Below, piece after piece: positions 17,743 to 63,915 of a stretch of 64,000 bases of DNA. Under the pieces are notes generated by a model that saw only the letters and a list, made by a program, of their open reading frames with translations, was not told where the DNA came from and did no database searches. The stretch's first letter is position 1. The number at the start of each line of letters is the position of its first letter. The translations under genes and the position numbers were made by a program. Source of the stretch: a virus; IMG/VR virus record IMGVR_UViG_3300011112_000003, positions 1 through 64,000 of that record; one strand, 5' to 3'.

Positions 17743-17761
17743 GGTCTTCGTTCCTCTCGGG

Positions 17762-18514
17762 CTAGGCGTGGTGCCGTGCCGTGTAGTCCACAATCTGCGT
17801 CGCGAATGCGCGACTGAATCCAGGTCGGATAGCGAGGAGCAGCTCGACGGCCGCACCCTTGGTGAGCTTCCGCTTCCGCTTCTTCTTCTCGTCGTCGTCG
17901 ACGCCTTCAAGGGCTTCGGTCTGCAACGGCTCCGCGCTCCCGGGCTCACCCGCGGGAATACTCACGGATAGCGACTTCGCGAGCACATCGAGACTCGTCT
18001 CCGTGTTCACAGGGCAGCGCGTGATCGCAACCTCGCGAACTTCAGCCTTGCGCACGATCTTCGAGTTCTTGGGGTCCCGCTTCAGGATACTGCCCTCGAC
18101 ACTAAAGCCGAGCTTGCGGCCGCTTCCGCCCTTGTGCAGGCCCTGAGCAATCTTCCACAGCGAATCGGCGCGTGGGTTGACGTCCTCGGGGAGCAGCTCG
18201 CCTTCGACGTACCAGCCCTTGTGCCCCTTCGCGAGGGTGTCGAGCCGCACCATGGTCGGGTAGCCCACGAGCGAATCGCCCGCGCCGTCATGGTTGTCGT
18301 TGAACCAGCCCTTTTTCAGGAACGGCCCGAAGTCGAGGCCCTCCTGGATAAGTGTCTCGCCCGCACGGTCCATGTGGTCCGTCGAAATGTACCCGCCGAT
18401 GAACCGCCCCGAACGCCCGTCGACCTTGGATTTCTCCATCGACTCCATTTCCATATCGAACCGAAAAACGGCCGATGGATCAGTGGGTCGGGTAGTAGGC
18501 GCGGTTTGAAGCAT
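17762..18514 (-). CDS. Prohead maturation protease
   Basis: ATG at 18514; 250 residues. It has the herpesvirus/HK97-type protease pattern: GYISTDHMDRAGETL near residue 42, a His in WFNDNHDG near residue 72, and a Ser in KLGFSVEGSIL near residue 137. It would digest the scaffold during capsid maturation. The C-terminal 50 residues are Lys-rich (DDDEKKKRKRKL). It heads the protease-scaffold-capsid series. By analogy with T4 gp21, it is a candidate to process tagged internal proteins (see findings). Confidence 0.8.
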   Translation of the reverse strand: MLQTAPTTRPTDPSAVFRFDMEMESMEKSKVDGRSGRFIGGYISTDHMDRAGETLIQEGLDFGPFLKKGWFNDNHDGAGDSLVGYPTMVRLDTLAKGHKGWYVEGELLPEDVNPRADSLWKIAQGLHKGGSGRKLGFSVEGSILKRDPKNSKIVRKAEVREVAITRCPVNTETSLDVLAKSLSVSIPAGEPGSAEPLQTEALEGVDDDEKKKRKRKLTKGAAVELLLAIRPGFSRAFATQIVDYTARHHA

Positions 18515-29927: not shown

Positions 29928-30527
29928 TCAGCCCCTGTTCTTGTGCGCCTGCGTGCGCTGCCTTCGGATAAGCTCGCCGTAGGTCATGATCCCAATGTAG
30001 CGACGCATCGCCCACAGCAGCTCGCCCGTTGCCGTGGCGTCCGCGAGCGCATCATGCGCATCTGTCAGCTCCACACCCCATCGCGCGCAAGCCTCGCCCA
30101 GCTTGTTGCCCTTGACGCCCTGCTTCTTCGCGAAGTACCGGACCATCACCAGCGGGTCTATCCACGGCCCGTAGTCTGGTACCAGGTCGAGCGCAAACCG
30201 CTCCGCGATGCCGCGGTCGAACTCTTCGTTGTAGGCGCAGAACACCGCACCCGCACAGACCCGGTACATATCCTTGGAAGCCAATGCGTCCTCTGCGCTC
30301 GGCGCGCCCCTCACGTCCGCGTCCCGGATGCCGTGGACCTTCGTCGCGTGGAAAGGGATCGGGATGCCGGGGTCCACGAGGGTCTTGTGGCTGTCGGTCA
30401 CGCGCCCCTTCTCGAAGCGCACGGCCGCGACCTGGACCACCCCACACGCTTTCTTGTTGACCCCCGTGGTCTCGAAGTCGATGACGGTGATAGGTATGTC
30501 GTACCAGATCGCGAAGTGGTCGATCAC
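29928..30527 (-). CDS. DnaQ-like 3'-5' exonuclease
   Basis: GTG at 30527 overlaps the upstream stop (GTGA); 199 residues. It has the DEDDh motifs: VIDFETTG near residue 15, a middle FCAYNEEFDRGI near 97, and DAHDALADATATGELLW near 160. Likely proofreading or nucleotide-recycling exonuclease acting on DNA. Confidence 0.85.
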   Translation of the reverse strand: MIDHFAIWYDIPITVIDFETTGVNKKACGVVQVAAVRFEKGRVTDSHKTLVDPGIPIPFHATKVHGIRDADVRGAPSAEDALASKDMYRVCAGAVFCAYNEEFDRGIAERFALDLVPDYGPWIDPLVMVRYFAKKQGVKGNKLGEACARWGVELTDAHDALADATATGELLWAMRRYIGIMTYGELIRRQRTQAHKNRG

Positions 30528-30943
30528 GCCTGGCCCTGCGACTGCGCTAACGCTAGTAGCCCCCGCATGTTCTCAGCTACGGCTGAGTTATCCTTCGCCC
30601 GCAGGATGTGCCTACCGCAAGCCTCCCCCCACCCAGCACTCCCTGCACGCTGATCCGCGCGCACACTCTGCAGGATATAGCCCTCGGGGTAGAACGCCGC
30701 GTAGCCCGCGAGGCGCCCCGCAATCGCATCGTCCGCCAGATCCCGGAAGCCCCAGATCTCACTACTGCAGTAGTGCTCCGCGAGTAGCACCCCGCACTCG
30801 GACAGCGCGACACACATCCCATCCCCACCCGAAGAATCTAGGCTGAACATGTAGATGGTTCCCGCCTGCTTTCGGATCGGGGACTCACCGCGACGCGACC
30901 GCATGTGCTCTGCGAAGCCTAGATTATCCAGCTTGCCGGTCAT
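30524..30943 (-). CDS. Tagged accessory protein (L-x-N-FAxxMRxxRGE family), isolated copy
   Basis: ATG at 30943; 139 residues. The N-terminus KLDNLGFAEHMRSRRGESPI carries the same tag as the 51.6-59.7 kb array, 20 kb away from it. The C-terminal part reads like a Ntn-type or protease-fold protein (TIYMFSLDSSGGDGMCVALS, VLLAEHYCSSEIWG) but I do not identify it. Confidence 0.65.
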   Translation of the reverse strand: MTGKLDNLGFAEHMRSRRGESPIRKQAGTIYMFSLDSSGGDGMCVALSECGVLLAEHYCSSEIWGFRDLADDAIAGRLAGYAAFYPEGYILQSVRADQRAGSAGWGEACGRHILRAKDNSAVAENMRGLLALAQSQGQA

Positions 30944-44964: not shown

Positions 44965-45189
44965 TCAAGCGCCCCACACCGGGCCCCCGTACAGCTTGTG
45001 CTCTCGCGTCGTCGCCCCGCAGTCCTGGCATGTGGTGATCTGCGCCACCCCTCCCGACACTTCCGGATCGAGTAGCGTCTTCCGCCAGCAAGCCATCCTC
45101 GGGTGCTCGCAGGGCCGTCCCGCACGCCGCCGGATGCGCATGTGCCTCGCGTACCCCCGGGCGTCCAGGCCCCGCGTGCTAGCGATCAC
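44965..45189 (-). CDS. Tagged accessory protein (L-x-x-x-x-YAxxMRxxRR), isolated copy
   Basis: GTG at 45189 overlaps the upstream stop; 74 residues. The N-terminus GLDARGYARHMRIRRRAGRP is a variant of the array tag. A zinc site follows (CEHPRMACWRK...CQDCGATTREH). Only 6.5 kb from the main array. Confidence 0.55.
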   Translation of the reverse strand: MIASTRGLDARGYARHMRIRRRAGRPCEHPRMACWRKTLLDPEVSGGVAQITTCQDCGATTREHKLYGGPVWGA

Positions 45190-46824: not shown

Positions 46825-47004
46825 TCATCGCCTACCCTCCACGACGTCCTTCGCCCACTGCCGCATATCGTCGAGCCACCGCTGCGCCTCAGGCGACACG
46901 ACGCGCACAACCGGCGCCGGGTCTCCGCGCATCACGCGCATGAGCTTCGCATAGTCTGTATTGGATAGGCCTGTAGTCCCCACGATGTGCAGGCGCCCTG
47001 CCAT
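46825..47004 (-). CDS. Tagged accessory protein (LSNxxYAxxMRxxRGDP), isolated copy
   Basis: ATG at 47004; 59 residues. GLSNTDYAKLMRVMRGDPAP begins at residue 12 and its DNA has CTATCCAAT, as in the array. The short rest is helical (QRWLDDMRQWAKDVVEG). It is the smallest family member and is about 5 kb from the array. Confidence 0.6.
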   Translation of the reverse strand: MAGRLHIVGTTGLSNTDYAKLMRVMRGDPAPVVRVVSPEAQRWLDDMRQWAKDVVEGRR

Positions 47005-49404: not shown

Positions 49405-49919
49405 CCTATCTTCACCTTCAGCCCTAGTAAGGCGCTGTGATAATCAAACTCCGGGTCAGCCCGCTTCGCCGCACTGACGTCGAGACATGCCTGGAAATGC
49501 GCATCATCCATGTGTCTCCAGTGCTTCGGCATGTCGACCATCGGGATTTTGTGAACGGACGCATAAAGCGCCATGGCCTCATCGGAGAGCCGGGTCTTCA
49601 TCGACGCCGTCACTGAATAGAGGTCGACGGACCCGCCGTCACCGACGCGGGCGGACAACACGTACATCACGTCGTCTTCGTCCTCTTCCTTGCGGACGAA
49701 TGCGTCTTGCTTCGAGAACGACACCCCCTTGCGGAGATCGCGGAACCCCACCGCAACCTCAGTGAGGTCTCCACATCTCACCATGCCGGCTAGCAGTTCG
49801 CCAATGTCCCACGGCCAGCAGCACGTCTTAGAGTCGGGCACCTCCGCGCTTTCGGTAGTCGAGTCGATCTTGTTCTTGCTTGGCTTGTTCACCGGGTCGG
49901 TCTTCGAGGGGTCGGTCAT
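49401..49919 (-). CDS. Hypothetical protein
   Basis: ATG at 49919 lies 92 bases inside the end of the head protein gene; 172 residues. A disordered Thr/Ser/Lys start with AEVPDSKTCCWPWD, then beta-rich EEDEDDVMYVLSARVGDGGS and HWRHMDDAHFQACL. Unknown. Confidence 0.5.
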   Translation of the reverse strand: MTDPSKTDPVNKPSKNKIDSTTESAEVPDSKTCCWPWDIGELLAGMVRCGDLTEVAVGFRDLRKGVSFSKQDAFVRKEEDEDDVMYVLSARVGDGGSVDLYSVTASMKTRLSDEAMALYASVHKIPMVDMPKHWRHMDDAHFQACLDVSAAKRADPEFDYHSALLGLKVKIG

Positions 49920-51654
49920 TTCGGTTCTTTCTCCAGATGCCCTTGTAGGCTCGGTGCAGCATCGAGAACGCGAGTGGGAACTGCATCATGATAAGCTTGC
50001 GCTCGTACAGGTAGAGCCGCGTCAGCTCGGCCGCGTTCTCGATCGGCGCGGTCTGCGCGTAGGGACTCACGAACCCTTCCCGCTTGCTGACCCCGAACAG
50101 TTTCTTGTGCCATTTGATAACCGGCGCTTCTCCACCCCAGCAGTACATGAGCCACACGTTCAGGGAGTGGCCCAACTCGTGTTCCAGCACATGCTTCAGG
50201 CGTGCCAACGGTAGTGTACCGGATACTCGGATTTCGTTGCCGGTCCAGTAGGCGAGGTCGTGGTCCTCCATGGCGTTGTCGACGCGCGGTTGGTCTTCGC
50301 AGATAAGCGTGACACCCACGCGCCTGTCGAATATCTCGGGAGGCGTTCGGTCTATCACCGCCTGGGCCACAGACAGCTTCTGCGGATCACCTATGCGGAT
50401 GGCGCAACCACGCTCGGGCACGACGTTCCCCCAGGTCAGGTGCGCTTTGCGTAGGTCGCCCGGTAGCAGCTGCGAGCGCAACAGACTCTGCGGCATGAGA
50501 TCGCCATCTTCGTTGAAGCCCCAGCCGTTCGGTACATGGATAAGTTCGCAAGAACACCAAGGGTGGATAGGGCCTATCGTCGCTTGCCACGCGCTTTGCT
50601 TCTTACCGACGTTCGTGCCGTTCGCCTGTAGCTCGGACAGCTTGAAGATACGCAGGGGCGAGCCTTCACCGGAGGTGTAGTGAAGGGCCACGCACCTCGG
50701 ACAGGCGCCGGGCGATGGTTGCTTCGCCACATTGATTTCGTCTGGGTCGCCCTCGCGTTCGATGAGCCCTGCGGTGAGCCCCTGCTGCATGGCGCTCTGC
50801 TTCTCGGTTGCTGAGATACGCTTGAAGTCTCGCGCCCAGTCCTGCGTGCGGTGCCCGAGGTCGCTCGCCAGCTTCCGCCAACTCTCCTGGCGCTCGATGT
50901 TCATATCCAACTCGTCGCGCACATCCGCCTGATATTTCGCGCGCAGCACAGCATCCGCCTCGACCGCGATGGTACTGAAGTCGTCGCCCACTCGGTTGCC
51001 CAGGCCTACGATGGTGTTCGCCGCATTGCCCGATGCCCAGGTGCGCGCGGCCTGCTCTTGGGTAGATAGGGTTGGGTCGCCGTACTTGGTGCGCCAGGGG
51101 TCCACGCCCAAGGTTGCCGCCTGTCCGCGCAGTTGCGGATCGCGTCCCATGGATATCCCGTAGTTGTACGCATCCGCGATGGCCTGCGCGCTCGGTGGGG
51201 CAGTCTCGCCGGGCTCGGCCTGGTAGCTGGCCTTCATGTCCTGTGGGAGCACGCCGCTGTCGATGAGCCGCTGGATATCCGCAGCGTCCACGTACTCCCC
51301 GCCCACCTGCGTCGCGATGAACGCTAGGTGGTAGTCGTTCACGATCCTGCGTATCTCCCGCAGGTGCTCCGGGTTGGCGATGGGGTCGTAGGGGCCCTCC
51401 GCCTTCTTCAGGCTATCATGGACTATCTTGGACTCCGCGTAATCGCGGATAACGCTGAGCATCTTATCTAGTTGCTTGCGGTATGCGCGCTCGAACTGCT
51501 CCGCGGACTGCTGCATTGCCTTGTAGTGCTGGAAAGTCCGCTCGGAGTACTTCACGCGCTCGGCTTTCAAGAGATACTCCGGGCCCATCACGTACTGCGC
51601 GAGTTCTAGGCGGTCCATGTCTGCTGGGGCGTCTATTGAGATATGTTTGGTCAT
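49828..51654 (-). CDS. MuF-type head morphogenesis protein fused to metalloprotease-like domain
   Basis: ATG at 51654 overlaps the first array gene (ATGA); 608 residues. Residues about 1-390 are a portal-associated minor head protein: long helices, then the zinc signature CPRCVALHYTSG ... GPIHPWCSCEL. The C-terminal 150 residues carry HVLEHELGHSLNV (about residue 490) and YAQTAPIENAAELTRLYL, the HExxH plus downstream Glu of a zinc metallopeptidase. The protein could be carried in the head and delivered with the DNA. It lies next to the tagged gene array. Confidence 0.8.
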   Translation of the reverse strand: MTKHISIDAPADMDRLELAQYVMGPEYLLKAERVKYSERTFQHYKAMQQSAEQFERAYRKQLDKMLSVIRDYAESKIVHDSLKKAEGPYDPIANPEHLREIRRIVNDYHLAFIATQVGGEYVDAADIQRLIDSGVLPQDMKASYQAEPGETAPPSAQAIADAYNYGISMGRDPQLRGQAATLGVDPWRTKYGDPTLSTQEQAARTWASGNAANTIVGLGNRVGDDFSTIAVEADAVLRAKYQADVRDELDMNIERQESWRKLASDLGHRTQDWARDFKRISATEKQSAMQQGLTAGLIEREGDPDEINVAKQPSPGACPRCVALHYTSGEGSPLRIFKLSELQANGTNVGKKQSAWQATIGPIHPWCSCELIHVPNGWGFNEDGDLMPQSLLRSQLLPGDLRKAHLTWGNVVPERGCAIRIGDPQKLSVAQAVIDRTPPEIFDRRVGVTLICEDQPRVDNAMEDHDLAYWTGNEIRVSGTLPLARLKHVLEHELGHSLNVWLMYCWGGEAPVIKWHKKLFGVSKREGFVSPYAQTAPIENAAELTRLYLYERKLIMMQFPLAFSMLHRAYKGIWRKNRNDRPLEDRPGEQAKQEQDRLDYRKRGGARL

Positions 51655-51851
51655 GGCAGCATGCTTCCCATCCCGCAACCGAAGTTCCGCAGCTTGGCCT
51701 CGGCTCTCGTGATGCCCTCGCGGTCAGCCCGCTCCTGGTGGATGTCCCGCCCCGGGCTCTTGGTTGGGAGGTAGATCCGAGGCAGTCCTCGCGCTCCCCT
51801 GTTCCTCCGCATGCGGATGGCAAAGGCTTCGTTGGATAGGTTCTTAGTCAT
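51651..51851 (-). CDS. Array gene 1: tagged protein
   Basis: ATG at 51851; 66 residues. Starts MTKNLSNEAFAIRMRRNRG, the array tag, followed by a short basic tail (PRIYLPTKSPGRD, EGITRAEAKLRNFG). It is the last array gene before the head protein and overlaps it by ATGA. Lacks any recognised domain. Confidence 0.75.
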   Translation of the reverse strand: MTKNLSNEAFAIRMRRNRGARGLPRIYLPTKSPGRDIHQERADREGITRAEAKLRNFGCGMGSMLP

Positions 51852-52177
51852 GAGTCCGATACCAATGATAGGGGGATGTTGATTGTCTTCGAGAAGATAA
51901 CGAGGTCGCTCAGGCGCATGCTGACTTCGACGACTCCCGGTGATGTCTCGACCACCTCCGCAGACACCACCCCAGGCATGGCCTCGACGCTCTTCTTGAT
52001 GCCTCCCACAGTGGGCTTCCGCCATGGCCCTGCGCCCAGCATCAAGGCCTCCCACTGCTCAATGAACTCCGCGTACTGCTCCCCCTTTGTCATGACCGGT
52101 ACACGGATCAGTCGCGGCTCTCCACGTTGCTCCCGCATACGATCTGCGTAGTCGTCGTTGGATAGGTTGTTCGTCAT
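51848..52177 (-). CDS. Array gene 2: tagged protein, cargo type A
   Basis: ATG at 52177; 109 residues. Tag MTNNLSNDDYADRMREQRG. The C-terminal 60 residues (GIKKSVEAMPGVVSAEVVET, GVVEVSMRLSD) match array gene 3, so these are paralogs in both tag and cargo. The cargo reads as a small alpha/beta sandwich. Confidence 0.8.
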   Translation of the reverse strand: MTNNLSNDDYADRMREQRGEPRLIRVPVMTKGEQYAEFIEQWEALMLGAGPWRKPTVGGIKKSVEAMPGVVSAEVVETSPGVVEVSMRLSDLVIFSKTINIPLSLVSDS

Positions 52178-52181
52178 TATC

Positions 52182-52478
52182 TTAGGCCGTGTCCATACGT
52201 ATCGTGAAGGACTGAATACTAGGCGCAGGGTCTCGGAGCCGCAGCTCGACGATGACCTCCCCTGGCACCCCACGAGTCACCTTCGCACTCTCCACTCTGG
52301 GCATGCGTGCGGCAGCTTCTTTGATGTCGCTCAATGTCGGCGCCGGGGGGCGGAACAGCCCCGGCGAGAAGGCGCGGATGTCTAGTAGGGGTGTGGACGA
52401 CACCGGGAGCTTCGGTGGCTCCCCCCGTTGACGCCGGGCATGCTCGGCGAACTCCCTGTTGGATAGATCGTTGGTCAT
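52182..52478 (-). CDS. Array gene 3: tagged protein, cargo type A
   Basis: ATG at 52478; 98 residues. Tag MTNDLSNREFAEHARRQRG (Ala in place of the Met before Arg). Cargo DIKEAAARMPRVESAKVTRG, GEVIVELRLRDPAP parallels array gene 2. Its stop is separated from the next start by only 4 bases. Confidence 0.8.
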   Translation of the reverse strand: MTNDLSNREFAEHARRQRGEPPKLPVSSTPLLDIRAFSPGLFRPPAPTLSDIKEAAARMPRVESAKVTRGVPGEVIVELRLRDPAPSIQSFTIRMDTA

Positions 52479-52855
52479 GTCTTGTACTCCCGGATCACAG
52501 ACTGCTTCGCGCCAAAATCCCATCCCAGGTAGTAGGTTGACCGTCGGTCGTAGTCGCGGGCCTCCGGGTTGGTCTTCAGGGGCTTCATGGGCATGCATAC
52601 GGGTCGGTGGGTGTCCATCCAGCGCAAGGCTTGGATGTCTACCTGGCCTCGACTGAACCACGCCGCTCCTGGCTCTCTCCATGCCCGCTGTAATGCGGCT
52701 ATCTCAGCATAGGCATCGGACAGGAGCATCACACGGCGGCCCCCTTGCTCGTCGTCGTACTCCAGTACGCAGTTGTCCGGCAGTGGGTAGAGTCTGAGTC
52801 CTGCGATCAGGATGTTGGTGCGGCCCTCCATCGGGGCTCTGGGATGTCTGGTCAT
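52475..52855 (-). CDS. Untagged gene inside the array
   Basis: ATG at 52855; 126 residues. MTRHPRAPMEGRTNILIAGL has no tag and no TATCC element. The rest is alpha/beta (ALQRAWREPGAAWFSRG, RSTYYLGWDFGAKQ). The only array gene before 57.2 kb without the signature, which makes it a useful contrast. Confidence 0.65.
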   Translation of the reverse strand: MTRHPRAPMEGRTNILIAGLRLYPLPDNCVLEYDDEQGGRRVMLLSDAYAEIAALQRAWREPGAAWFSRGQVDIQALRWMDTHRPVCMPMKPLKTNPEARDYDRRSTYYLGWDFGAKQSVIREYKT

Positions 52856-53205
52856 ATCTGCCTTCCAAGGTTCTGCCAGCCATCGGGCTCATGGTACTTG
52901 AGGAATGTGACGCGCCATAGGTCGGGGCCCGCCTCGCCCACGTGTAGCTTCACGTGGCTCACCAGTTCGCTCAGGTGGACTACGCAATGGGACTTGTTCG
53001 AGATAGGCGAGCCGCGCTCGTCGGTGGGGCGCAATAGGATGCAGTCCTTAGGCAGTCCGATATCCTTTGCGAACTGCGGTAGCTCCGTGTGCTTGGGGGT
53101 CCAGGCGAGTACCCACATGGTGCGTCCGCGGATGGGTGGCGGGGCCTGCCCTCGCTTACACCGTTGGCGGCTGGCGAAGTCTTCGTTGGATAGACCTCGG
53201 GTCAT
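52852..53205 (-). CDS. Array gene 4: tagged protein, cargo type B
   Basis: ATG at 53205 behind GAGG (a GTG at 53226 also possible); 117 residues. Tag MTRGLSNEDFASRQRCKRG (Gln for Met). Cargo ends CVVHLSELVSHVKLHVGEAG, PDLWRVTFLKYHEPDGW, a beta unit shared with array genes 7 and 9. Confidence 0.8.
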   Translation of the reverse strand: MTRGLSNEDFASRQRCKRGQAPPPIRGRTMWVLAWTPKHTELPQFAKDIGLPKDCILLRPTDERGSPISNKSHCVVHLSELVSHVKLHVGEAGPDLWRVTFLKYHEPDGWQNLGRQI

Positions 53206-53222
53206 GCGGTCCTCGATGTGCT

Positions 53223-53684
53223 TCACGTAGCGTACCCATCACAGGGCGTGACATGGCTCAGCCCCGCCAGCCCACATGCTGCATGGACTACCGACTGTAG
53301 GACTATGTTTTCCCTGCGCTCGCTGGCGTAGGGCTGGCGGTTGAGTTGGATAAGGCGGCCTTCAGGGCTCACCATGTTGACCGTGTACTGGTCGTCGTCA
53401 TTGCCGGAACCGGGCCCGCTGAGCAACCCCGCGTTCAATGCCTTGACGTTCAGGAACGGACCGAAGCCATCGGAGATAAAGGCATGCTCCTTTTTCTCTG
53501 CATCCCACAGCGCCCACCTACCCGTGGCGATAGCGATGCTGTAGGTAAGCCTGTTTAGGTCGAGGGTCACTAGCCCGCCGGCTAGGCACTGTGTCATGAC
53601 GACGGGTGGCCAGAACAATTGAGGCTCCCCTCGCCTCTCACGCATACGACTGGCAAAGTCTTCGTCGGATAAGTCTTGAGTCAT
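53223..53684 (-). CDS. Array gene 5: tagged protein
   Basis: ATG at 53684; 153 residues. Tag MTQDLSDEDFASRMRERRG with TTATCCGAC at the DNA level. Cargo is beta-rich (GGLVTLDLNRLTYSIAIATG, DQYTVNMVSPEGRLIQLNR). Unknown fold. Confidence 0.8.
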   Translation of the reverse strand: MTQDLSDEDFASRMRERRGEPQLFWPPVVMTQCLAGGLVTLDLNRLTYSIAIATGRWALWDAEKKEHAFISDGFGPFLNVKALNAGLLSGPGSGNDDDQYTVNMVSPEGRLIQLNRQPYASERRENIVLQSVVHAACGLAGLSHVTPCDGYAT

Positions 53685-54055
53685 AGCCGCTTGATGTCCA
53701 AGGTGGAGTGGTCGCCGGGGGGCACGATGGCATTCCTGCATTTCAGCTGAATCCGCGTAGGTACGTCGAACACCCAAGTCCCCCACAACCGCACAACTGC
53801 CGCCGGGCCACGCGCGGGGTGTGCGCTCGCAATAAAAATCCCTGTCGTGGCGTTGCTGAGATGCAGCGATGGAACAGCGCCTTCGTCACCCCAGCCCAGC
53901 ATGGCCATGGCCGTGATCCTGTAGCTGCCGGGCGAATGGATGTCCGCACTCAGCAGCGTCTGCCACATCGGTGATTGCTGCTGCTGCTTCGGCAGTTCCC
54001 CCCGCTGCGCTCTCATGCGCTCGGCGTACGCTTCGTTGGATAGGCTTTGAGTCAT
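53681..54055 (-). CDS. Array gene 6: tagged protein, beta-sandwich cargo
   Basis: ATG at 54055; 124 residues. Tag MTQSLSNEAYAERMRAQRG. Cargo SPGSYRITAMAMLGWGDEGA, VVRLWGTWVFDVPTRIQLK looks like a jelly-roll or Ig-type sheet, similar in pattern to array genes 10 and 11. Confidence 0.8.
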   Translation of the reverse strand: MTQSLSNEAYAERMRAQRGELPKQQQQSPMWQTLLSADIHSPGSYRITAMAMLGWGDEGAVPSLHLSNATTGIFIASAHPARGPAAVVRLWGTWVFDVPTRIQLKCRNAIVPPGDHSTLDIKRL

Positions 54056-54384
54056 TTCGATGGCTCGCAGCCAGGCCTGAACGTGACTTGCCAAATGTCC
54101 GGCCCGTCATCGCTCACTTCCACTTCATCCGCGTGGCTCCAGTGGCTCTCATGGACTGCCCGGAACCGGGCATCCGGTAGGGCAGCTCCCCTAGCGTCGC
54201 ATTCGAGCATCACGACGAAACCATTCTCAAAGCCGGGGCTCGGACGGAATTCCTCGGGCAGATCCTTGTGATGCCTGCGCCACACCTGCATGCGGACTGG
54301 GCCCCGGCCCAATCGCTTGGGCGGCTCTCCCCTGTTGCTCCGCATGCGCGCCGCATAGCTGCTGTTGGATAATGCACGGGTCAT
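54052..54384 (-). CDS. Array gene 7: tagged protein, cargo type B
   Basis: ATG at 54384; 110 residues. Tag MTRALSNSSYAARMRSNRG. C-terminus ESHWSHADEVEVSDDGPDIW then QVTFRPGCEPSK parallels array genes 4 and 9. ATGA overlap with the next gene. Confidence 0.8.
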   Translation of the reverse strand: MTRALSNSSYAARMRSNRGEPPKRLGRGPVRMQVWRRHHKDLPEEFRPSPGFENGFVVMLECDARGAALPDARFRAVHESHWSHADEVEVSDDGPDIWQVTFRPGCEPSK

Positions 54385-54845
54385 CGGCGCGGCCGCTGCG
54401 TGATCTGCGCGTCTCCCACCGCCATCGCTTCGGCAAGATCTGTTACCCCCTGCTTTACTGTGATGGTGGCGATCAACACCGCGGACATCAAATCGGGGTG
54501 CTCGACGTATGGCTCTGTATCAAAGGCAACTGCTGCTTCAGAGAGAGAGTCGTACACCACGAGCCCGTACACTGCGGTTGTGATGCCCTCCTTCCGCCAG
54601 TGGTACACCCGCTGGTTGTGGAACTTGCCTTCCGGAACGGGTACGGGCTCGGGCGCCCACGGGGGTTGGTAACGCTCAGGATCTATATCCTCACCCCGCT
54701 CGCCCCGAAAGGTCAGGTCACCGTCCGCGTTGACAAATGCGCAAGTCAACCCGGGCAACTCAGGCAGTCCCAGCGCCAGTGGCGATTCCCCACGCTTCCC
54801 ACGCATGAGATTGGCGAATGCTGCGTTAGATAGGCCCTGGGTCAT
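54381..54845 (-). CDS. Array gene 8: tagged protein
   Basis: ATG at 54845; 154 residues. Tag MTQGLSNAAFANLMRGKRG. Cargo contains FVNADGDLTFRGERGEDIDP and a helical YDSLSEAAVAFDTEPYVEH. Unknown fold. Confidence 0.8.
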   Translation of the reverse strand: MTQGLSNAAFANLMRGKRGESPLALGLPELPGLTCAFVNADGDLTFRGERGEDIDPERYQPPWAPEPVPVPEGKFHNQRVYHWRKEGITTAVYGLVVYDSLSEAAVAFDTEPYVEHPDLMSAVLIATITVKQGVTDLAEAMAVGDAQITQRPRR

Positions 54846-55201
54846 ACCATCCACTTCCCCATGCTCGTAGTCCAGCCCGGCGGGGTGAGTCCGGGCAGGA
54901 AGGATATCTCGCAGATGTCGGGCTGCTCTGGCAGCAGGCTCCGGGCCTTGAACTTGAACCGCGCCTCATCCAAATCGGTCCAGGGCACCACAAATCGTTG
55001 GATGCTTCGGATCCACGCCCCGTTATCCCACACCATCGTGACCATCATCTCGTCTTCGCCTATCTCGCCCCATGGGCAGCCCACCGGCAGTACGTGCGTG
55101 CTGCAGTGCATGGTCGCTTGGAACCACCAGCGTCTGATAGGTTCTTCGCGTTTGCTCCGCATGTGGTTGGCGAACGCATTGGGGGATAGGTCTTGGGTCA
55201 C
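54842..55201 (-). CDS. Array gene 9: tagged protein, cargo type B
   Basis: GTG at 55201 overlaps the next stop; 119 residues. Tag TQDLSPNAFANHMRSKREEP (Pro for Asn, Glu for Gly). Cargo ends PDICEISFLPGLTPPGW, matching array genes 4 and 7. Confidence 0.8.
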   Translation of the reverse strand: MTQDLSPNAFANHMRSKREEPIRRWWFQATMHCSTHVLPVGCPWGEIGEDEMMVTMVWDNGAWIRSIQRFVVPWTDLDEARFKFKARSLLPEQPDICEISFLPGLTPPGWTTSMGKWMV

Positions 55202-55575
55202 AGGCGCCCGTACTCTTCCACGAGCAGTCGCGGTGATCCGCCGCGCACCAACCCCCCAGTCACCCGCATGTATATCTTGCGGTCCATGGCCCATGCGTAT
55301 CGATCGCTGAGCGCCATGGTGTGCCATTCATCGGCGGGCACCGTCATGCGTATCTCCTGAAGCAGACCCGACATATCATACAAGCTGAGGATGACTTCGC
55401 CCGGGCCCCGCACAATGACACTGACCGTCACACAGTAGGTGTTCCCATCGCCCGGTACGATGGCCTCACCCAGGTTGTTGATATTGAACTTTGGGGCGGG
55501 CAAGCGCATCAGGGGCTCCCCACGGCGCGCCCGCATGTGATTCGCATAGCGCAGGTTGGATAGGCTTTGGGTCAC
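55198..55575 (-). CDS. Array gene 10: tagged protein, cargo type C
   Basis: GTG at 55575; 125 residues. Tag TQSLSNLRYANHMRARRGEP. Cargo FNINNLGEAIVPGDGNTYCV ... DRKIYMRVTGGLVRGGSPRL is a clear paralog of array gene 11. Beta-rich. Confidence 0.82.
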   Translation of the reverse strand: MTQSLSNLRYANHMRARRGEPLMRLPAPKFNINNLGEAIVPGDGNTYCVTVSVIVRGPGEVILSLYDMSGLLQEIRMTVPADEWHTMALSDRYAWAMDRKIYMRVTGGLVRGGSPRLLVEEYGRL

Positions 55576-55970
55576 GCGATGGGCTCCACGAGTATGCGCC
55601 ACGATCCTTCGCGCACCGTACCCCCGGTCACGCGCAGGTAGATCTTGCGGTCCGAGCTGCAGGTGTAGTGATGGCGGAGCCCCACGACGCGCCACGAGTC
55701 GCTGTCCAGATCCTCGCGCCAATCCTCCAGCATGCCCGCCCTGTCGTACAGCCCTACGATGACGGCGCTGGGGCCCTTCACCCAGAGGGAGCCCTTCACG
55801 TGGACATGCGCCATCACGCTGTATGTCCTCATGTCCCCCGTGATCGTGGCCTCTGCTACGTTATTGATATTGAACGGCTGTTGGATAGGAGCGGGCTCCG
55901 GTGGCTGCCCGCGGAGTAGGCGCATGTGCTCGGCGTACGCCCCGTCGGATAAGGTCGTTGTGTCTACCAT
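55572..55970 (-). CDS. Array gene 11: tagged protein, cargo type C
   Basis: ATG at 55970; 132 residues. Tag TTTLSDGAYAEHMRLLRGQP with TTATCCGAC in the DNA. Cargo FNINNVAEATITGDMRTYSV ... DRKIYLRVTGGTVREGSWRI matches array gene 10 along its length, with a short insertion. Confidence 0.82.
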   Translation of the reverse strand: MVDTTTLSDGAYAEHMRLLRGQPPEPAPIQQPFNINNVAEATITGDMRTYSVMAHVHVKGSLWVKGPSAVIVGLYDRAGMLEDWREDLDSDSWRVVGLRHHYTCSSDRKIYLRVTGGTVREGSWRILVEPIA

Positions 55971-56362
55971 TCGCTGCACGCTATGACTGTAGGGTTGGGG
56001 CCGGGCGTGTTCAGGAACGCGGTCCACATGTTGGTGACTCCCTTGTCCTCATCATCGTGATATTTGATGGTCAGTGCTTCGATGCGCCCGATCGAACTCG
56101 TCTCGCATTGCGACTCACGGCCCCAGTCCAGCTCCTCGGCGCTTTTCCAGGCCAGATCCGTCACAGCCGCCATGTCGGTGGTGTCGCCGCCTATCCACCA
56201 CCGCACGTCCTCAATCTCCACCACGAACAATGTGTAGCCCTGCCTGTGGTGCCGCTCGCGCATCGGGTCGCTATGGATAAGGCCTGCCTGCACTTGCCGC
56301 CTGCGTATCCTGAAGCGCACCGCGAGCGCATCGTTGGTGAGGTGGCGCGTGTCGTAGGGCAT
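55964..56362 (-). CDS. Array gene 12: divergent tag
   Basis: ATG at 56362; 132 residues. MPYDTRHLTNDALAVRFRIR keeps the L-T-N and Arg positions but has lost the aromatic, the Met and the TATCC element (codons are CTC ACC AAC). Cargo TLFVVEIEDVRWWIGGDTTD is unlike its neighbours. Either degenerate or the outgroup of the family. Confidence 0.6.
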   Translation of the reverse strand: MPYDTRHLTNDALAVRFRIRRRQVQAGLIHSDPMRERHHRQGYTLFVVEIEDVRWWIGGDTTDMAAVTDLAWKSAEELDWGRESQCETSSIGRIEALTIKYHDDEDKGVTNMWTAFLNTPGPNPTVIACSEW

Positions 56363-56364
56363 TA

Positions 56365-56937
56365 CTACGCCAAACTCAGGGTGTGCCGGTGGAACGCGAC
56401 GTCCATGGGGGCGAGGTACCAGAAGGTCAACGACACCACGGCCGTGTCTCGACTCTTCTGGTCGATATCCCCGACCTGGACTTCACGTATCTCACGGATG
56501 GCGGGTATGTCGCACAGCGCTACCAGCATGTCCCGCTCGGTAGGCTTACGTTCGGATATCACGTCCACCGAGCCCGACCACTGGCGCCAAGTGCGCATGT
56601 CCGGCCGTAGCACGAACGGCACGCGCGAGAAGTCTACGTCGATTCCGTGAATGTCCGGCCAATAGCTGATCATGGTTCGCTGTTGGCCCGATGTGCTGGT
56701 GACCGTGCGGACCTTCAAGACCATGCTCGGGTTCCCAGGCAGGCCCGTGCCTAGGAGGGCCACAACCGAGCGTAGGATATCGTCTGGGTCTGCATTGGTG
56801 TCGAGGAAGCGATCGGCATGCACAAGCGCAACGCACCCCGCCCATACACGCGCGCCATGAGGGATGGGATCCAGCGGGTGCTTGCGAGTCGCACGCATGT
56901 GGCGCGCGAAGTCCTGATTGGATAGCGCGAGGGTCAC
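56365..56937 (-). CDS. Array gene 13: tagged protein
   Basis: GTG at 56937; 190 residues, the longest intact tagged cargo. Tag TLALSNQDFARHMRATRKHP. Cargo has GCVALVHADRFLDTNADPDD and IPAIREIREVQVGDIDQKSR; the last part resembles cargo type A in its 'P-x-I-x-x-V' pattern. Unknown fold. Confidence 0.78.
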   Translation of the reverse strand: MTLALSNQDFARHMRATRKHPLDPIPHGARVWAGCVALVHADRFLDTNADPDDILRSVVALLGTGLPGNPSMVLKVRTVTSTSGQQRTMISYWPDIHGIDVDFSRVPFVLRPDMRTWRQWSGSVDVISERKPTERDMLVALCDIPAIREIREVQVGDIDQKSRDTAVVSLTFWYLAPMDVAFHRHTLSLA

Positions 56938-57188
56938 CCCCACCTCGCGCCAGATGCGCGCGCCCGCTCGCGCTCGCTCAGCTGGGATATGCCTGGCTTT
57001 GAGCGGCATCGCTTGCACACGGGGTTCATGTTCTTCGCGCGGTACTTGCGGCCGCACTCGTCACAGCGTGGCCAGTTGGCTCGCTTGTCTGGTCCCTTGA
57101 CCTGTTTCTCGCGCACGCACCTCTTCACGCGCATGCGCTGAGCAAAGTCTTCGTCGGATAGGCCGCGCGTTGCTGAGTCGTTGTTCAC
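56934..57188 (-). CDS. Array gene 14: tagged zinc-ribbon protein
   Basis: GTG at 57188; 84 residues. Tag ATRGLSDEDFAQRMRVKRC starts later than usual (residue 6). Cargo is CDECGRKYRAKNMNPVCKRC, a zinc ribbon, with a basic surround. A nucleic-acid-binding cargo is likely. Confidence 0.75.
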   Translation of the reverse strand: MNNDSATRGLSDEDFAQRMRVKRCVREKQVKGPDKRANWPRCDECGRKYRAKNMNPVCKRCRSKPGISQLSERERARASGARWG

Positions 57189-57904
57189 AGCGCGCACTCC
57201 AGGTAGCAGACCAGTCCGTTGCCCCAGTCCATGCACCGCGAGCCCGGCAACCCTGTACAGTCGGCTTCGGTCGTGCAGCTCGGTGCCGCGTGGTCGTCGG
57301 TGCCTCCGGTGCCGCAGAAGGCAGCATCCCCGGTAGCCACCGACTGACCGCACGCCATGCCCACAGGGCACGCCTCGGGTGACGGCGGCCCGCAACAGAA
57401 GCTAGCGCAGTTCCCACACTCGCCTACCGGCCGCTCTTGCCCCGGGACACACGGCGCAAGCCGGCACGTAGGCCCCGTATCACCATCCCCGTCGCCGTCT
57501 CCACGGTCCCCATCCCCAGCACCATCGCCGTCCCCGTCACCACTGCCGCCATCGCCGACCCCGCCGCCAGTGCCCGCACCATCACCATCTCCGTCACCGT
57601 CCCCACCTCCATCGCTGCCACCAAGTAATCCCCCGCTATCCCCATTCCCGCCAGTGCCGTCCCCCAGGCCCACGCTACCATCGTTCGGATAGTCGTCTTC
57701 GCAAGGAAGCCCACCGCAGGGATCACCGCGGTCACTCGGACCCCCAGCACCAGCAGATCCCATGCTGTCCACCCAATCACCACTCCTATCCAAATCATCA
57801 CTACCTCCGTCCTGACCACAGCACGCATTGTCTACGGCAACATCGCCGTCCGTGATTGCAGTGCAGCCCGTGAGCAGCGCCAAAATGATAATCAGATGTC
57901 CCAT
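57185..57904 (-). CDS. Lipoprotein with Gly-Asp repeats and cysteine-rich end
   Basis: ATG at 57904; 239 residues. The start MGHLIIILALLTGCTAITDG has a lipobox (LLTGC, Cys at residue 14). Residues about 75-150 are Gly-Asp-Gly-Asp repeats that could bind Ca2+ like thrombospondin type-3 repeats. The end has 10 or more cysteines in the CTTEADCTGLPGSRCMDWG style of Myxococcota surface proteins. Outer-membrane location expected. Probably acquired from the host. Confidence 0.7.
   Translation of the reverse strand: MGHLIIILALLTGCTAITDGDVAVDNACCGQDGGSDDLDRSGDWVDSMGSAGAGGPSDRGDPCGGLPCEDDYPNDGSVGLGDGTGGNGDSGGLLGGSDGGGDGDGDGDGAGTGGGVGDGGSGDGDGDGAGDGDRGDGDGDGDTGPTCRLAPCVPGQERPVGECGNCASFCCGPPSPEACPVGMACGQSVATGDAAFCGTGGTDDHAAPSCTTEADCTGLPGSRCMDWGNGLVCYLECAL
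57480..57620. repeat. Degenerate GGTGAC/GGCGAT repeat region
   Basis: Short imperfect repeats encode the Gly-Asp stretch of the lipoprotein. They account for the many open frames on both strands here. Confidence 0.7.
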
Positions 57905-58323
57905 CACGCGGTCCCTCCTACCTGCCAGGCCGTCCACACCCACGCGCTACCATCCCAGATGCCTTCGCAACGTGAACCGCTGACGGTCTGGAATGTCCCT
58001 GTGATCTTCGAGGGGCCGTTCACCACTATTTTCTGTCCCCCGTCTTTTGCCCACTCCTTCCGCGCCTGTTCGTACTGCCTAAGTTCACCCGCGAACTCTT
58101 CGGCAGACATGGTGCGTACGTACACATCAGTATCTGCTATCTCGTCCCACTCGTAGACCTCACGGCAGGGACGACAAGGGGGCCCATACCAGACCACAGA
58201 GGTGTCAACCTCTTCGCTGACCTCGGCACGTATGAACGGTTCCCCCAGCCAGGGATCGGGGAAGGCTACCCCCAGCTCACCCAACATCGCTTTGGCGCCC
58301 GCAAGATTGCTCAGATGTCCCAT
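57904..58323 (-). CDS. Hypothetical protein
   Basis: ATG at 58323; 139 residues. Its first 13 bases, ATGGGACATCTGA, are the same as those of the lipoprotein gene. It has VVWYGPPCRPCREVYEWDEI (a CxxC) and a helical SAEEFAGELRQYEQARKEWA. Unknown; overlaps both neighbours. Confidence 0.55.
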   Translation of the reverse strand: MGHLSNLAGAKAMLGELGVAFPDPWLGEPFIRAEVSEEVDTSVVWYGPPCRPCREVYEWDEIADTDVYVRTMSAEEFAGELRQYEQARKEWAKDGGQKIVVNGPSKITGTFQTVSGSRCEGIWDGSAWVWTAWQVGGTA

Positions 58324-59057
58324 CGCACACTCCCCTCGCACCCCTGCGTGTTGCACGCGATGCTGATATCTTCGTTGCCTGCCCACATGAGCCAGGCGCC
58401 CACACCCGTGACGATTGCGCCCAGCGGCAACAGCACGTCGGTCGCGATACCTAGTGTATCAACGGTGCTGCCTAAATCACGGCCCTCGCGCAGGTCTCCC
58501 GCGGCACACTGGCGGTCGGCCCCGCATAGCGTGTCGAGGTCACTGTCAGCCCCCACGGCCAGGACGCCGGTAATGCTGCCCGCCAGAATGAGCGCTCCGC
58601 CGCCCACGAGCAGGCTGACGGGCAGAACGTCGCTGCGGACGGGCGCTGGCACGGGCGCGACCGCCTGAGGGGCCTGCGGGGGCTCCTGGGGCGGTTCTGG
58701 CTCGGGTGGCTCCTCGAACTTCGTGAATGGGCCCTCATCCGCAGGTTTCCGCAAGCGCACGATGCGGCCCCGCACTTCGTCGCCCCGTGGTGTGTCAGCC
58801 TCCCACCGCAGGAACCGCTCGTAGGCCGCGACCGCTTCCGCGTCATGGCTCAGTGCCTCGTGCGCCAGACCGATGTTGTAGTGCAGCTTGGGATGCCCCG
58901 ATTCCCGCAAGGACTGCTGCCAATGAGTCATGGCCACCGTGTAGTCACCCGCATCGTAGGCAGTTCGGCCCGCCTCGAATGCAGTGCGGCCGCGCTCGCT
59001 CATCTGTGCGGAAACTGGAATCGCTATCAGGCAAATAGCTAATGAAATCCTCATCAT
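58311..59057 (-). CDS. TPR membrane protein of Myxococcota type
   Basis: ATG at 59057 behind GGAGG, directly after operator 4; 248 residues. MMRISLAICLIAIPVSAQ is a signal peptide. Tetratricopeptide repeats follow (FEAGRTAYDAGDYTVAMTHW, LHYNIGLAHEALSHDAEAVA), then a Pro/Glu-rich linker, two membrane segments (LLVGGGALILAGSITGVLAV and LPLGAIVTGVGAWLMWAG) and between them GADSDLDTLCGADRQC. This order is very familiar from Myxococcota genomes, so the gene looks host-derived. The upstream frame is open but is separated by the operator. Confidence 0.75.
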   Translation of the reverse strand: MMRISLAICLIAIPVSAQMSERGRTAFEAGRTAYDAGDYTVAMTHWQQSLRESGHPKLHYNIGLAHEALSHDAEAVAAYERFLRWEADTPRGDEVRGRIVRLRKPADEGPFTKFEEPPEPEPPQEPPQAPQAVAPVPAPVRSDVLPVSLLVGGGALILAGSITGVLAVGADSDLDTLCGADRQCAAGDLREGRDLGSTVDTLGIATDVLLPLGAIVTGVGAWLMWAGNEDISIACNTQGCEGSVRWDI

Positions 59058-59079
59058 AGCTCGGTCCTCCCCCAAGTCC

Positions 59080-59111
59080 TGTACGTACGGTACCGCAACC
59101 GCGTACGTACT
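59080..59111. promoter_or_regulatory. Tandem GTACGTAC operator 4
   Basis: TGTACGTACG at 59080-59089 and CGTACGTACT at 59102-59111, 22 bp apart, upstream of the TPR gene. TTTATCCAAA precedes it. Confidence 0.75.
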
Positions 59112-59131
59112 GCAAGCGCATTTGGATAAAG

Positions 59132-59336
59132 CTAATTGAATCTGTATTTCGCTCGGTACATGTGGGCTTCCCCGGGGACCTCTCCAAGGTCGTAGCCCGT
59201 CGCCTCCGGGCGGAGCCTGCGCCATTGCCCGATCGTGGAACTCCCGAGACGCCTTATCGAGGTCGAAGGGCGTGGGCACCTCGCAGCGCAGGCGGCGCAT
59301 ACGCTTGGCGAACTGCACGTTGTTCTCACTACGCAT
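59132..59336 (-). pseudogene. Array gene 15: tagged gene, probably frameshifted
   Basis: ATG at 59336 gives MRSENNVQFAKRMRRLR, a shortened form of the tag without L-S-N. The frame then runs open into the TPR gene, with unnatural composition across the operator. Another frame carries a natural-looking end (GQWRRLRPEATGYDLGEVPG, then AHMYRAKYRFN) and a stop at 59132, just before TTTATCCAAA. A one-base indel near 59215-59240 would join them. It may be a decayed gene or a sequence error. Confidence 0.5.
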
Positions 59337-59691
59337 CCCCAGACCCTCGGCGGAACAAGGCCTTCACCTGAATCTCCGCGCTCCACAGGCCGGACGCAAC
59401 CCATGGGCGGATGCGCACGATGTGGTGCTCTTTGAGCTTCGGGTTACCGCCCGGTTGCCTGGTCACCAGAATGCGCGGCGCAAGTAGATGCTCGCGGGGC
59501 AGGTAGTGCATCTGATCGTCCGGCACGCGGTTGCCCAGCAGCGAGCACGGGATCACATCGAACCCATCCTGCAGTTGGGTCGACCGCATGACCATGTGCA
59601 GTTCGATCCATGCGAGCAGTGCAGACTTGTCACCCCGCTTGGCCCGCATGTGCGCCGCGAACTCTTCGGCGCCTAGCTCAGTCGTCGTCAC
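59329..59691 (-). CDS. Array gene 16: tagged protein
   Basis: GTG at 59691; 120 residues. Tag TTTELGAEEFAAHMRAKRGD (Gly-Ala for Ser-Asn; DNA CTAGGCGCC, so no TATCC). Cargo has LLAWIELHMVMRSTQLQDG and LVTRQPGGNPKLKEHHIV. It is the array's first gene in transcription order and overlaps the gene before it by 14 bases. Confidence 0.72.
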   Translation of the reverse strand: MTTTELGAEEFAAHMRAKRGDKSALLAWIELHMVMRSTQLQDGFDVIPCSLLGNRVPDDQMHYLPREHLLAPRILVTRQPGGNPKLKEHHIVRIRPWVASGLWSAEIQVKALFRRGSGDA

Positions 59692-61410: not shown

Positions 61411-62184
61411 TTACGGCGTGGCTACCAAATCCCCGGCGAGGAAAGCTGTCAGCTTGAGTGCGCTGGTGAGCGACAAGTTCGTGACCTGTAGGGCGCTTGC
61501 CTGCACCGTCCCCAAGAAATAGGCCTGGAGACCCTCCGCCGCCGATGAGCCCGCTGGGTCGGCCGGTCGAAGCACCTGAATGTCCGTTGTGCCAGGCTCC
61601 GCAGCAGTTCCCGCGTTGGTGGCAGCTGTGAGCCCCAGGGCCGTCAGAACGGCTGCTGTGCTCGACGCCAGGACTTCTACGGTGCTACTCGGTCCGGTCG
61701 ACAGGGAGCGCAGCAGTAGCTCGGCCACGTTGGGGAAGGCGATCGGCTTGGCCACGAACGCGGCATTGGTGTTCGCCGCGTCGAAGTTGATGCGGGCCAC
61801 CACCTCGTCGCGGGTCTGGTCGGCCACGTCGAAGGTGACAGTGATCGGGATGGTGTCCACGACCAACTCCAGCACCTCCCCCCCTGTGAATCCCGTCGGG
61901 TACGTCCCCGCAACGCCCAGCAGCACACCAGCCGTGGCGAGCGCGGCCGCGAGCGCAAGGGAAAACTCACTGTCGCCCGACAGGTAGAGGTAGCGAAGAT
62001 CGGTGATGTCGCCGAAGTCGATCTGCTCCGTCTCACCACCCAAGATCTCATAGGTCGTGGTGGTCGAGTGCTCCAGCGTATCCAGGATCTGACTGATCAC
62101 GCCCTGACCGCCGAACACCTTGTTGACGAGGTCGCCGTTGAGACCTGCAATCAGGTCAAGAGTGGTTGAGATACGAATGCCCAT
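61411..62184 (-). CDS. Structural protein (portal-adjacent)
   Basis: ATG at 62184, 3 bases after the portal stop; 257 residues. Ala/Thr/Leu-rich beta repeats (VDTIPITVTFDVADQTRDEV, NTNAAFVAKPIAFPN) resemble the inserted domains of the sheath protein in style. Probably a head or neck structural protein; family not recognised. Confidence 0.55.
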   Translation of the reverse strand: MGIRISTTLDLIAGLNGDLVNKVFGGQGVISQILDTLEHSTTTTYEILGGETEQIDFGDITDLRYLYLSGDSEFSLALAAALATAGVLLGVAGTYPTGFTGGEVLELVVDTIPITVTFDVADQTRDEVVARINFDAANTNAAFVAKPIAFPNVAELLLRSLSTGPSSTVEVLASSTAAVLTALGLTAATNAGTAAEPGTTDIQVLRPADPAGSSAAEGLQAYFLGTVQASALQVTNLSLTSALKLTAFLAGDLVATP

Positions 62185-62187
62185 GCT

Positions 62188-63915
62188 TCAGCTCCCTACG
62201 TCGATTTCGATGTGTCGACGGCCCTCTGCGACCGACTCGCGCCGCTCGGATTTTCGTAGTTCCTCTGCGACGATATTGGAGACCGTCAGGGATGCCGCAA
62301 GTGCCTCAGCCTGCGAATCCGCAAACCCCCCATCGCCCCCATCACCATCCTGGTCGGCGGGCTCGTCGTCACCGCCATCGCCGGGCTCGTCGTCGCCAAA
62401 CAGATCGTCGTTATCCTCCGACCCATCGCTTTCGCCCGCGCCCAAGTCCTCACCATTGCCGTCGGTGCCCTCCTGGGCCGACTTGTTCGCCTGCCACACA
62501 GTGTTCAGGATAACCTGACCCAGCCCGTCGGGTAGCGGCTCCAAGTCCTGCTCCGCGCGGATCTCATCGACGTACTTCCAGTTCTCCACCTCAGTCTTGC
62601 GGCGCTCACGCTCTTTGCCTTCCGCCTTCGCGTCGAGGCCCGTGAACTGGAACTCTAGCTCGGGCGCTAGCTCCCAGATGAGGTGGCGATTGATATTGTC
62701 GGAGACGTGATCAGCAAGCGGCGCGAGCCCCTTGTCCTTCGACTCGACCACCTCCGCTTCGTTCGGTCGGGACTGGCTGAGGCTCGACGTCTGTCCGCTG
62801 TTGCCAAAGATGAAGTTGATCTCCGTCGGGTCAACGCCGTAGATCGCACAGATCAGCTTCGTGAGCCAATCCATCCACTGGCCGTACTCCATCTCCCGAT
62901 TGTTGGTGTGCATGTTGATCCACTGCACCTCCTCGGAGTTTAGGATAGGAGTTTTCCACGCGTTCTGGACGCCCGTGATCATCGAATACCACATGCGCCG
63001 GAACGCACGGAGCTGCCGGTCGGGTAGGGAACCCTTGATATTTAGGATCCCCTTGATGGCGCTACCCTGCGTGAAAAATCTTGTATTATATTCAAAACCG
63101 TACAGCCACGCGGTCACCAAGCGCACGATCTGTTCAGTCGGAGCGAAGCCAAAACCATTCGTGCGCAGGTCCGAACGCGGGTTCATGACGCACCATGCAA
63201 GGTCGTCGACCCCGAACTCGGCGATGACTGAGTTGTCGTAGACCTGCAGGTGGGACACCCGGCTGCGCAGCTCGGACGTCGTCATGTGCTCGGTGTCCGC
63301 GACCGCGGGGCGGATGGTCTCTGCGGGCAAGCAGATAAAGCGCGAGGGGCGCTGCGCCCGGTCGCGGATCTTCTCGAAGCACCATTGGTCGTATGTGAGG
63401 ATATCGCGCGTCGACTTCTTTATGAACATGCGGAAGCTGTCACGATCGGATGGCCGCTCATCGGGCTGCAGGAACGCAGTCGTTTCGAGCATGGCTTCCA
63501 GCTGGGCCGCTTGCCTTTGCTCAGACGAGGTCATCTTGACCATGTTGTCGCGGCGGTCCCGCTTGATGATCCTGTAACCCTTATCGTAGACACCCTGCTG
63601 CGGGCGCGCGAAGGCCGCGAGCTGATTGGTGCGCAACTGGATGATCGCTGCGATCACCGTGTTCTGCACCGCCATCTGCCGCAGCGATTCGTAGGTCAAA
63701 CTGCTCGGTCGCTGGCGCCAACCCCCCCAATCCATCACTGAGTACGGATCGTGAAAAAGAGCCCTTGGCTTCTCGTCTGTGGGTTGCGCCAACGTACCAA
63801 AACCCGTCGACGCGAGCGCCTTCTGCATCTCGTCGAAGGGCACATCCTCCTGGCTAGTGTCCTGCCAACTGACCAGTTCACGAGCAGTGCCTGCGATGTC
63901 ACCGATAAGTCCCAT
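62188..63915 (-). CDS. Portal protein
   Basis: ATG at 63915; 575 residues, normal length. Typical portal pieces: AVQNTVIAAIIQLRTNQLAA near residue 60, TYDQWCFEKIRDRAQRPSRF near 170, VTAWLYGFEYNTRFFTQGSA near 265, and YGQWMDWLTKLICAIYGVDP then NFIFGNSGQTSSL near 345-375. The C-terminal 90 residues are acidic (Gly/Asp/Glu), a disordered tail. Forms the dodecameric DNA entry vertex. Confidence 0.92.
   Translation of the reverse strand: MGLIGDIAGTARELVSWQDTSQEDVPFDEMQKALASTGFGTLAQPTDEKPRALFHDPYSVMDWGGWRQRPSSLTYESLRQMAVQNTVIAAIIQLRTNQLAAFARPQQGVYDKGYRIIKRDRRDNMVKMTSSEQRQAAQLEAMLETTAFLQPDERPSDRDSFRMFIKKSTRDILTYDQWCFEKIRDRAQRPSRFICLPAETIRPAVADTEHMTTSELRSRVSHLQVYDNSVIAEFGVDDLAWCVMNPRSDLRTNGFGFAPTEQIVRLVTAWLYGFEYNTRFFTQGSAIKGILNIKGSLPDRQLRAFRRMWYSMITGVQNAWKTPILNSEEVQWINMHTNNREMEYGQWMDWLTKLICAIYGVDPTEINFIFGNSGQTSSLSQSRPNEAEVVESKDKGLAPLADHVSDNINRHLIWELAPELEFQFTGLDAKAEGKERERRKTEVENWKYVDEIRAEQDLEPLPDGLGQVILNTVWQANKSAQEGTDGNGEDLGAGESDGSEDNDDLFGDDEPGDGGDDEPADQDGDGGDGGFADSQAEALAASLTVSNIVAEELRKSERRESVAEGRRHIEIDVGS

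Follow-up and report, generated by a model that had tools for sequence, protein, structure and literature searches.

We analyzed the first 64,000 positions (1-64000, the window) of the 72,078-base IMG/VR virus record IMGVR_UViG_3300011112_000003 and found a phage in which 19 minus-strand genes carry one short peptide tag, TxxLS[ND]xx[FY]AxxMRxxRGE, joined to otherwise diverse small proteins, the cargos. The tag is portable to either end of a protein, independent of the cargo and restricted to one phage clade, and the cassettes that carry it are subject to turnover. These properties argue strongly for a short linear docking motif. We regard the tag as a portable docking helix that would bring fast-changing cargos to one phage partner, most likely in the assembling head, a reading to which we give an even chance.

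As the initial annotation had described, 16 of the tags lie in the interval between the portal and MuF genes (51651-59691), all of them in frame and close to the starts of minus-strand open reading frames (ORFs), and three more lie at 46953, 45153, and 30916. The pattern is far beyond chance. With a 17-residue profile, the 19 tags score 21–42 bits against a best score of 10.5 in the reversed window, and a profile hidden Markov model (HMM) built from 16 tags matched 16 of the 19 at E-values between 4e-11 and 2e-16. An earlier tag profile had no match in 643 kb of shuffled DNA, and the reversed sequences of relatives reached at best 16.2, compared with 31–46 for the tags used. Members from which a profile is built match it by construction; independent support comes from these controls and from the members found afterwards, including a 20th tag outside the window, upstream of terL (contig positions 70166-70219), found with a profile rebuilt from 36 clade tags. 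The idea that the leading MT merely reflects ATGA gene overlaps was dropped upon inspection, because the Thr three residues before the Leu recurs in non-overlapping and in C-terminal tags.

The HMM search proposed in the initial annotation recovered, besides the 20th tag, tags in 10 of the 24 records of related phages, and none in 16 bacterial genomes or in three other phages (SPO1, LysYB1, and phage G). Related records or stretches are labeled G0xx or Lxxx, the record under study being G000. The clade-wide consensus is T-x-x-L-S-[DN]-x-x-[FYL]-A-x-x-[ML]-R-x-x-R-G-E, and the tag resides at the N- or C-termini of about 25 proteins of the relatives, several tags ending 0–8 residues before the stop codon. 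N-terminal tags are found in G001, G024, G040, G041, G012, G015, and G019. At least nine proteins bear the tag at the C-terminus, where some tags reach the stop codon, as in L077:14556 (KLSNRDFAKLMRERRSGGR-stop) and in L083 and L098, which end with SREAS-stop; further examples are L079:8287, L090, L106, L096:8412, and L220:7963. A homology search with 21 tagged proteins of the relatives found mostly unrelated cargos and a few orthologous pairs. Each of the seven orthologous pairs compared is tagged in both members and at a matching end, and the tag is more conserved in identity than the cargo in 10 of 10 orthologous or paralogous pairs. In G015, the tag follows a PHROG 2164 domain, and the listed tblastn matches of this protein in Staphylococcus and Bacillus phages reach no further than residue 116 of 218, thus stopping before the tag, which points to a fusion.

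As for the wider distribution, a tblastn search with one tag returned no match among 50,697 phage records, a 22-residue query being of little power, and strict-motif scans of IMG/VR at the DNA level gave chance matches only. A pattern scan of GTDB yielded 93 stretches, of which, after profile and frame checks, one (L133) contained an array and the others appeared chance-like. Judged from the sequences searched, the tag is confined to a single clade.

The array itself illustrates how fast the cargos change. In about 25 relatives found by their portal, the order portal, p61411-type gene, and MuF is essentially contiguous; in the phage under study, 9.7 kb with 16 tagged genes lie between p61411 and MuF. 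L133 (G040:C157), a contig of a Gammaproteobacteria metagenome-assembled genome that may be a mixed bin, is a close relative with a 92% identical major capsid protein (MCP) and a 75% identical MuF. It has three tagged genes at the same site, and only the last, adjoining MuF, shares its cargo with the phage under study (68% identity over 107 residues). Given 16 versus three tagged genes with one in common and the near-identical MCP, the cassette content has therefore been almost wholly replaced, with the capsid barely changed. Tags in the portal-MuF interval are found in these two phages, and tags close upstream of terL in both and in G041, G001, and G024. A MuF-based scan gave no match. G001 (L006 and L095) holds about 10 kb of accessory genes without the tag, one of them ThyX-like, at the same p61411-MuF site. 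An intein (PF14890, E = 3.9e-10) splits the MuF gene of L133 (L133:3267-6371), and that of the window lacks one.

The AlphaFold model of the 55198-55575 protein has a helix at residues 5–17, a low-confidence stretch at about 26–30, and an all-β domain with confidence scores (pLDDT) mostly above 90; the weaker model of 51848-52177 has a helix at residues 7–17 followed by a low-confidence linker. The tag is thus predicted to form a capped amphipathic helix of 15–17 residues, isolated from the folded cargo by a loose linker, and would present a hydrophobic face of L, F, A, and M together with two near-invariant arginines. The β-domain of 55198-55575 matched C1q/TNF-like jelly-rolls in the PDB (template modeling (TM) score up to 0.59) as well as C1q-like proteins of phages; these matches are modest, with TM scores of at most 0.64 and no PDB match at E < 0.001. 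The top fold match of 51848-52177, the anti-CBASS protein Acb4 of SPO1, was set aside as too weak to use (E = 0.028, TM score 0.32–0.39, low-confidence model), leaving an anti-defense cargo as a weak lead. A viral search with the cargo of 55198-55575 found no match, and Pfam, PHROGs, NCBIfam, and PADLOC recognized almost none of the cargos and gave nothing useful. The cargos behind the common tag had been described as differing from one another; they are indeed mostly unrelated, except for three detectable paralogue pairs (55198/55572, 52852/54052, and 51848/52182) among singletons. The virion-type protein 10570-13671, part of which the cargo of 53223-53684 resembles, contains a laminin-G domain, and one tagged protein of G040 has a DnaJ-type zinc motif.

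The nucleotide sequence of the tags bears on whether the peptide itself is under selection. The initial annotation had stated that third codon positions vary, which holds for T2, A11, R15, R18, and G19 (modal third base in 34 of 67) but not for L-S. Among 14 L-S tags, the Leu codon (L5) ends with A in 14 of 14 and the Ser codon (S6) with C in 13 of 14, so that YTATCC is frozen (Fisher p = 6e-6 between the two sets of codons, indicative only because the tags are related). Tag serines in the other genomes of the clade are encoded by AGC, AGT, or TCG. An additional constraint at the nucleotide level (YTATCC) is therefore present in the array and in two G040 genes. YTATCC resembles half of the start-associated element TATCCGATA, a resemblance that alone does not imply kinship. 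The window has 10 copies of this element against 0.16 expected, all on the coding strand and nine of them with an ATG/GTG triplet 5–14 bases downstream (minus-strand sites include 61386, 60056, 39265, 32797, 31847, 27099, 25511, and 21197). It precedes many untagged genes and probably acts in promotion or translation as an element specific to this phage. Other repeats were seen in relatives, CATTATCCTTTG-like in G012 and AATCGTGTAAG-like in G019.

The frozen YTATCC amid drifting codons and the start-associated element elsewhere in the genome might suggest that the conserved stretch serves chiefly as a nucleic-acid element for recombination or regulation where genes begin, its translation being incidental. 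We consider this very improbable, as the peptide is kept while codons vary freely outside L-S, is also kept at C-termini, and is encoded with different serine codons in other phages; any DNA constraint would at most come on top of peptide conservation. Least probable of all is that the tag is a non-functional remnant of duplicated genes, such as the first helix of a DNA-binding domain since lost. Tandem paralogues do exist, but the identity of the tag exceeds that of the cargo in every pair, both members of each orthologous pair retain it, and it has spread to the C-termini of unrelated proteins.

The phage encodes known and candidate components of a head in which such a tag could act. The portal protein gave a Pfam Phage_portal match and shares about 34–38% identity with SPO1-type portals, a distant likeness. 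The protease to which the initial annotation assigned the release of the cargos, encoded at 17762-18514, is a plausible S78-like candidate, although its Peptidase_S78 match is sub-threshold (E = 3.5e-4, against 2.9e-6 for SPO1's own protease as positive control). The 16690-17760 ORF gave no family match and is a candidate docking partner of the tag by virtue of its position. Since the portal, SU10-like MCP, S78-like match, scaffold-position ORF, and MuF occur together, a protease-matured head is plausible. A stand-alone gene (19364-20110) has a pyrophosphatase-like domain of a kind seen in the polyvalent proteins that phage virions deliver (PHROG 4660 and 10089).

According to the reading we favor, a helix of 15–17 residues with a loose linker, joined to otherwise unrelated small proteins, would be recognized by one partner conserved across the clade. 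Fast-changing accessory proteins, kept as cassettes of a compact head-module operon, would thereby be recruited to a single destination. If the partner lies in the assembling head, as a scaffold, portal, or packaging complex, the cargos might be loaded into or onto the virion and delivered to the next host. We lean toward a partner in the head because N-terminal copies are mostly in the head module, the cargos are small and turn over like T4 internal proteins, and a protease candidate is present. Part of the initial proposal, that the tag loads diverse effectors into the head, finds support in a peptide-level tag on diverse cargos, the head-module setting, the S78-like protease candidate, the scaffold-like ORF, and the cargo turnover. 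Its N-terminal leader, freed by the protease after RGEP, does not: the same motif at the C-terminus of at least nine proteins disfavors a cleaved leader as a general account. The absence of the tag from about half of the related records searched, many being fragments, counts against the reading we favor. Some tagged proteins also reside in replication and nuclease modules of the relatives (in a DnaB-like helicase-primase gap, by RuvC/TerS, and near SbcCD), which a head signal does not predict. Tentatively, a broader variant might accommodate them: one terminal helical address peptide, used at either end and in head, packaging, and replication proteins alike, would be a recruitment code to a single hub, expanded in some members into a cassette array with effectors swapped between close relatives.

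The same module positions, together with the coiled-coil regions that precede some C-terminal tags, could instead indicate a non-virion hub in the infected cell, such as the replisome, the packaging complex, a host factor, or a protease recognizing the tag as a degron, the head-module site being incidental. The predicted shape is also like that of helical docking motifs. The MIM1 helix of ESCRT-III, which binds MIT domains, has a [DE]xxLxxRLxxL[KR]-like pattern and is likewise terminal and portable. The MIM1 peptide of Vps46 was the top PDB match of the tag, but this match is not significant (E = 0.36), and the likeness is at most convergence. The idea of an MIT-domain partner was dropped after a search for the domain (PF04212) found none in G000 and one sub-threshold match in the relative G012. 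With N-terminal tags overwhelmingly in or beside structural and packaging modules, we consider a cell hub somewhat unlikely. We judge it unlikely, too, that the tag docks cargos on the virion exterior as capsid or tail decoration, the array then supplying interchangeable modules for adhesion or display. The jelly-roll of the one well-modeled cargo is a fold frequent in phage fiber and capsid-associated proteins, another cargo resembles part of the laminin-G virion protein, and short conserved docking peptides are already known (PMC6872550). However, the zinc-ribbon-like cargo, the DnaJ-type zinc motif, the cargos of 66–79 residues, and the replication-module proteins are unlike surface modules, and the fold matches are modest, as described above.

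Table 1. Tagged genes and head-module genes in the window.
Feature	Coordinates	Strand	Basis or remark
Portal protein	62188..63915	-	Pfam match and SPO1-type similarity
Conserved gene after portal (p61411)	61411..62184	-	In relatives normally MuF directly next
Tagged gene (VTTTELGAEEFAAHMRAKRGD), cargo unknown	59329..59691	-	
Degenerate tag (SENNVQFAKRMRRLRCE) in frame with signal-peptide/TPR protein	58311..59336	-	
Tagged gene, zinc-ribbon-like cargo (CDECGRKYRAKNMNPVCKRC)	56934..57188	-	
Tagged gene, cargo unknown	56365..56937	-	
Tagged gene, divergent tag (HLTNDALAVRFRIRRR)	55964..56362	-	
Tagged gene, β cargo, paralogue of 55198-55575 (47% identity)	55572..55970	-	
Tagged gene, C1q/TNF-like jelly-roll cargo	55198..55575	-	AlphaFold2 model
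Tagged gene, weak relation to 52852/54052 family	54842..55201	-	
Tagged gene, cargo unknown	54381..54845	-	
Tagged gene, paralogue of 52852-53205	54052..54384	-	
Tagged gene, cargo β-rich by eye, without family match	53681..54055	-	
Tagged gene, cargo resembling part of large virion protein 10570-13671 (E = 2e-4)	53223..53684	-	
Tagged gene, cargo family common to 54052-54384	52852..53205	-	
Tagged gene, paralogue of 51848-52177	52182..52478	-	
Tagged gene, sole cargo in common with G040:C157 (68% identity)	51848..52177	-	
Tagged gene, 66 aa, overlapping MuF gene start	51651..51851	-	
MuF-like minor head protein	49828..51654	-	Downstream border of array; weak minor-head-family match
Tagged gene outside array	46825..47004	-	
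Tagged gene outside array, divergent tag, upstream of helicase gene	44965..45189	-	
Tagged gene outside array	30524..30943	-	
S78-like prohead protease candidate	17762..18514	-	Sub-threshold Peptidase_S78 match
Scaffold-like ORF, 356 residues, between protease and MCP	16690..17760	-	Position alone
Major capsid protein, SU10-like	15211..16623	-	SU10_MCP match

The gene ends show that many array neighbors overlap by four bases, in the style of a compact operon (Table 1). Because the tag at 59312 continues in frame into a 341-residue signal-peptide/TPR protein, 58311..59336 is probably a fusion or a decayed cassette. This protein and a Gly-Asp-repeat lipoprotein (57185-57943) within the array have a host-derived look by eye, in deltaproteobacterial style.

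The 17-residue label would assign about 20 unknown genes of a single genome, and others in the relatives, to a common destination; otherwise unclassifiable phage genes therefore become testable as a group, and the tag profile can be used to find such cassettes elsewhere. If the destination is the particle, the tag would be a second, sequence-unrelated, and unusually rich answer to the problem of carrying proteins into the host that T4 and P1 face, and would offer a portable means of loading foreign proteins.

As the initial annotation had supposed, we found no described system with this signature, and the nearest parallels are functional. The internal proteins IPI-III of T4 share an N-terminal capsid targeting sequence (CTS) that is cleaved by gp21 (PMC3012670; PMC9026906). 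Like the CTS, the tag is a short peptide common to otherwise diverse small phage proteins, with head-module logic and fast cargo diversification, and the same phage may encode a prohead protease, the S78-like candidate. Unlike the strictly N-terminal CTS, to which we saw no sequence relation, it is also C-terminal in relatives and present on many more genes, and its cleavage and packaging are proposals. In P1, the N-terminal 30 residues of DarB suffice to direct a reporter into the capsid (PMC9024508), but DarB is one very large protein and the tag a family-wide 17-residue motif of many small ones. Secondary receptor-binding proteins of Klebsiella and K1-5/SP6-like phages dock by conserved N-terminal peptides (PMC6872550), which join exchangeable modules to one adaptor, as the tag would, and differ between phage groups. 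Their cargos are large tailspikes or depolymerases, whereas those of the tag are small and varied, some in replication modules; no receptor-binding or depolymerase identity was found among them, most being small unknowns, with one C1q-like and one virion-protein-like. The tag thus works like the T4 CTS, P1 DarB, or receptor-binding protein docking peptides, yet we do not class it as a member of any of them because not all of their defining features are evident in it. MuF and polyvalent proteins carry virion-linked variable effector regions beside head genes (PMC5512222). The phage under study has both MuF and a polyvalent-type pyrophosphatase-like domain, and, unlike those proteins, in which the domains are fused in one chain, it has separate small proteins sharing a short helix.

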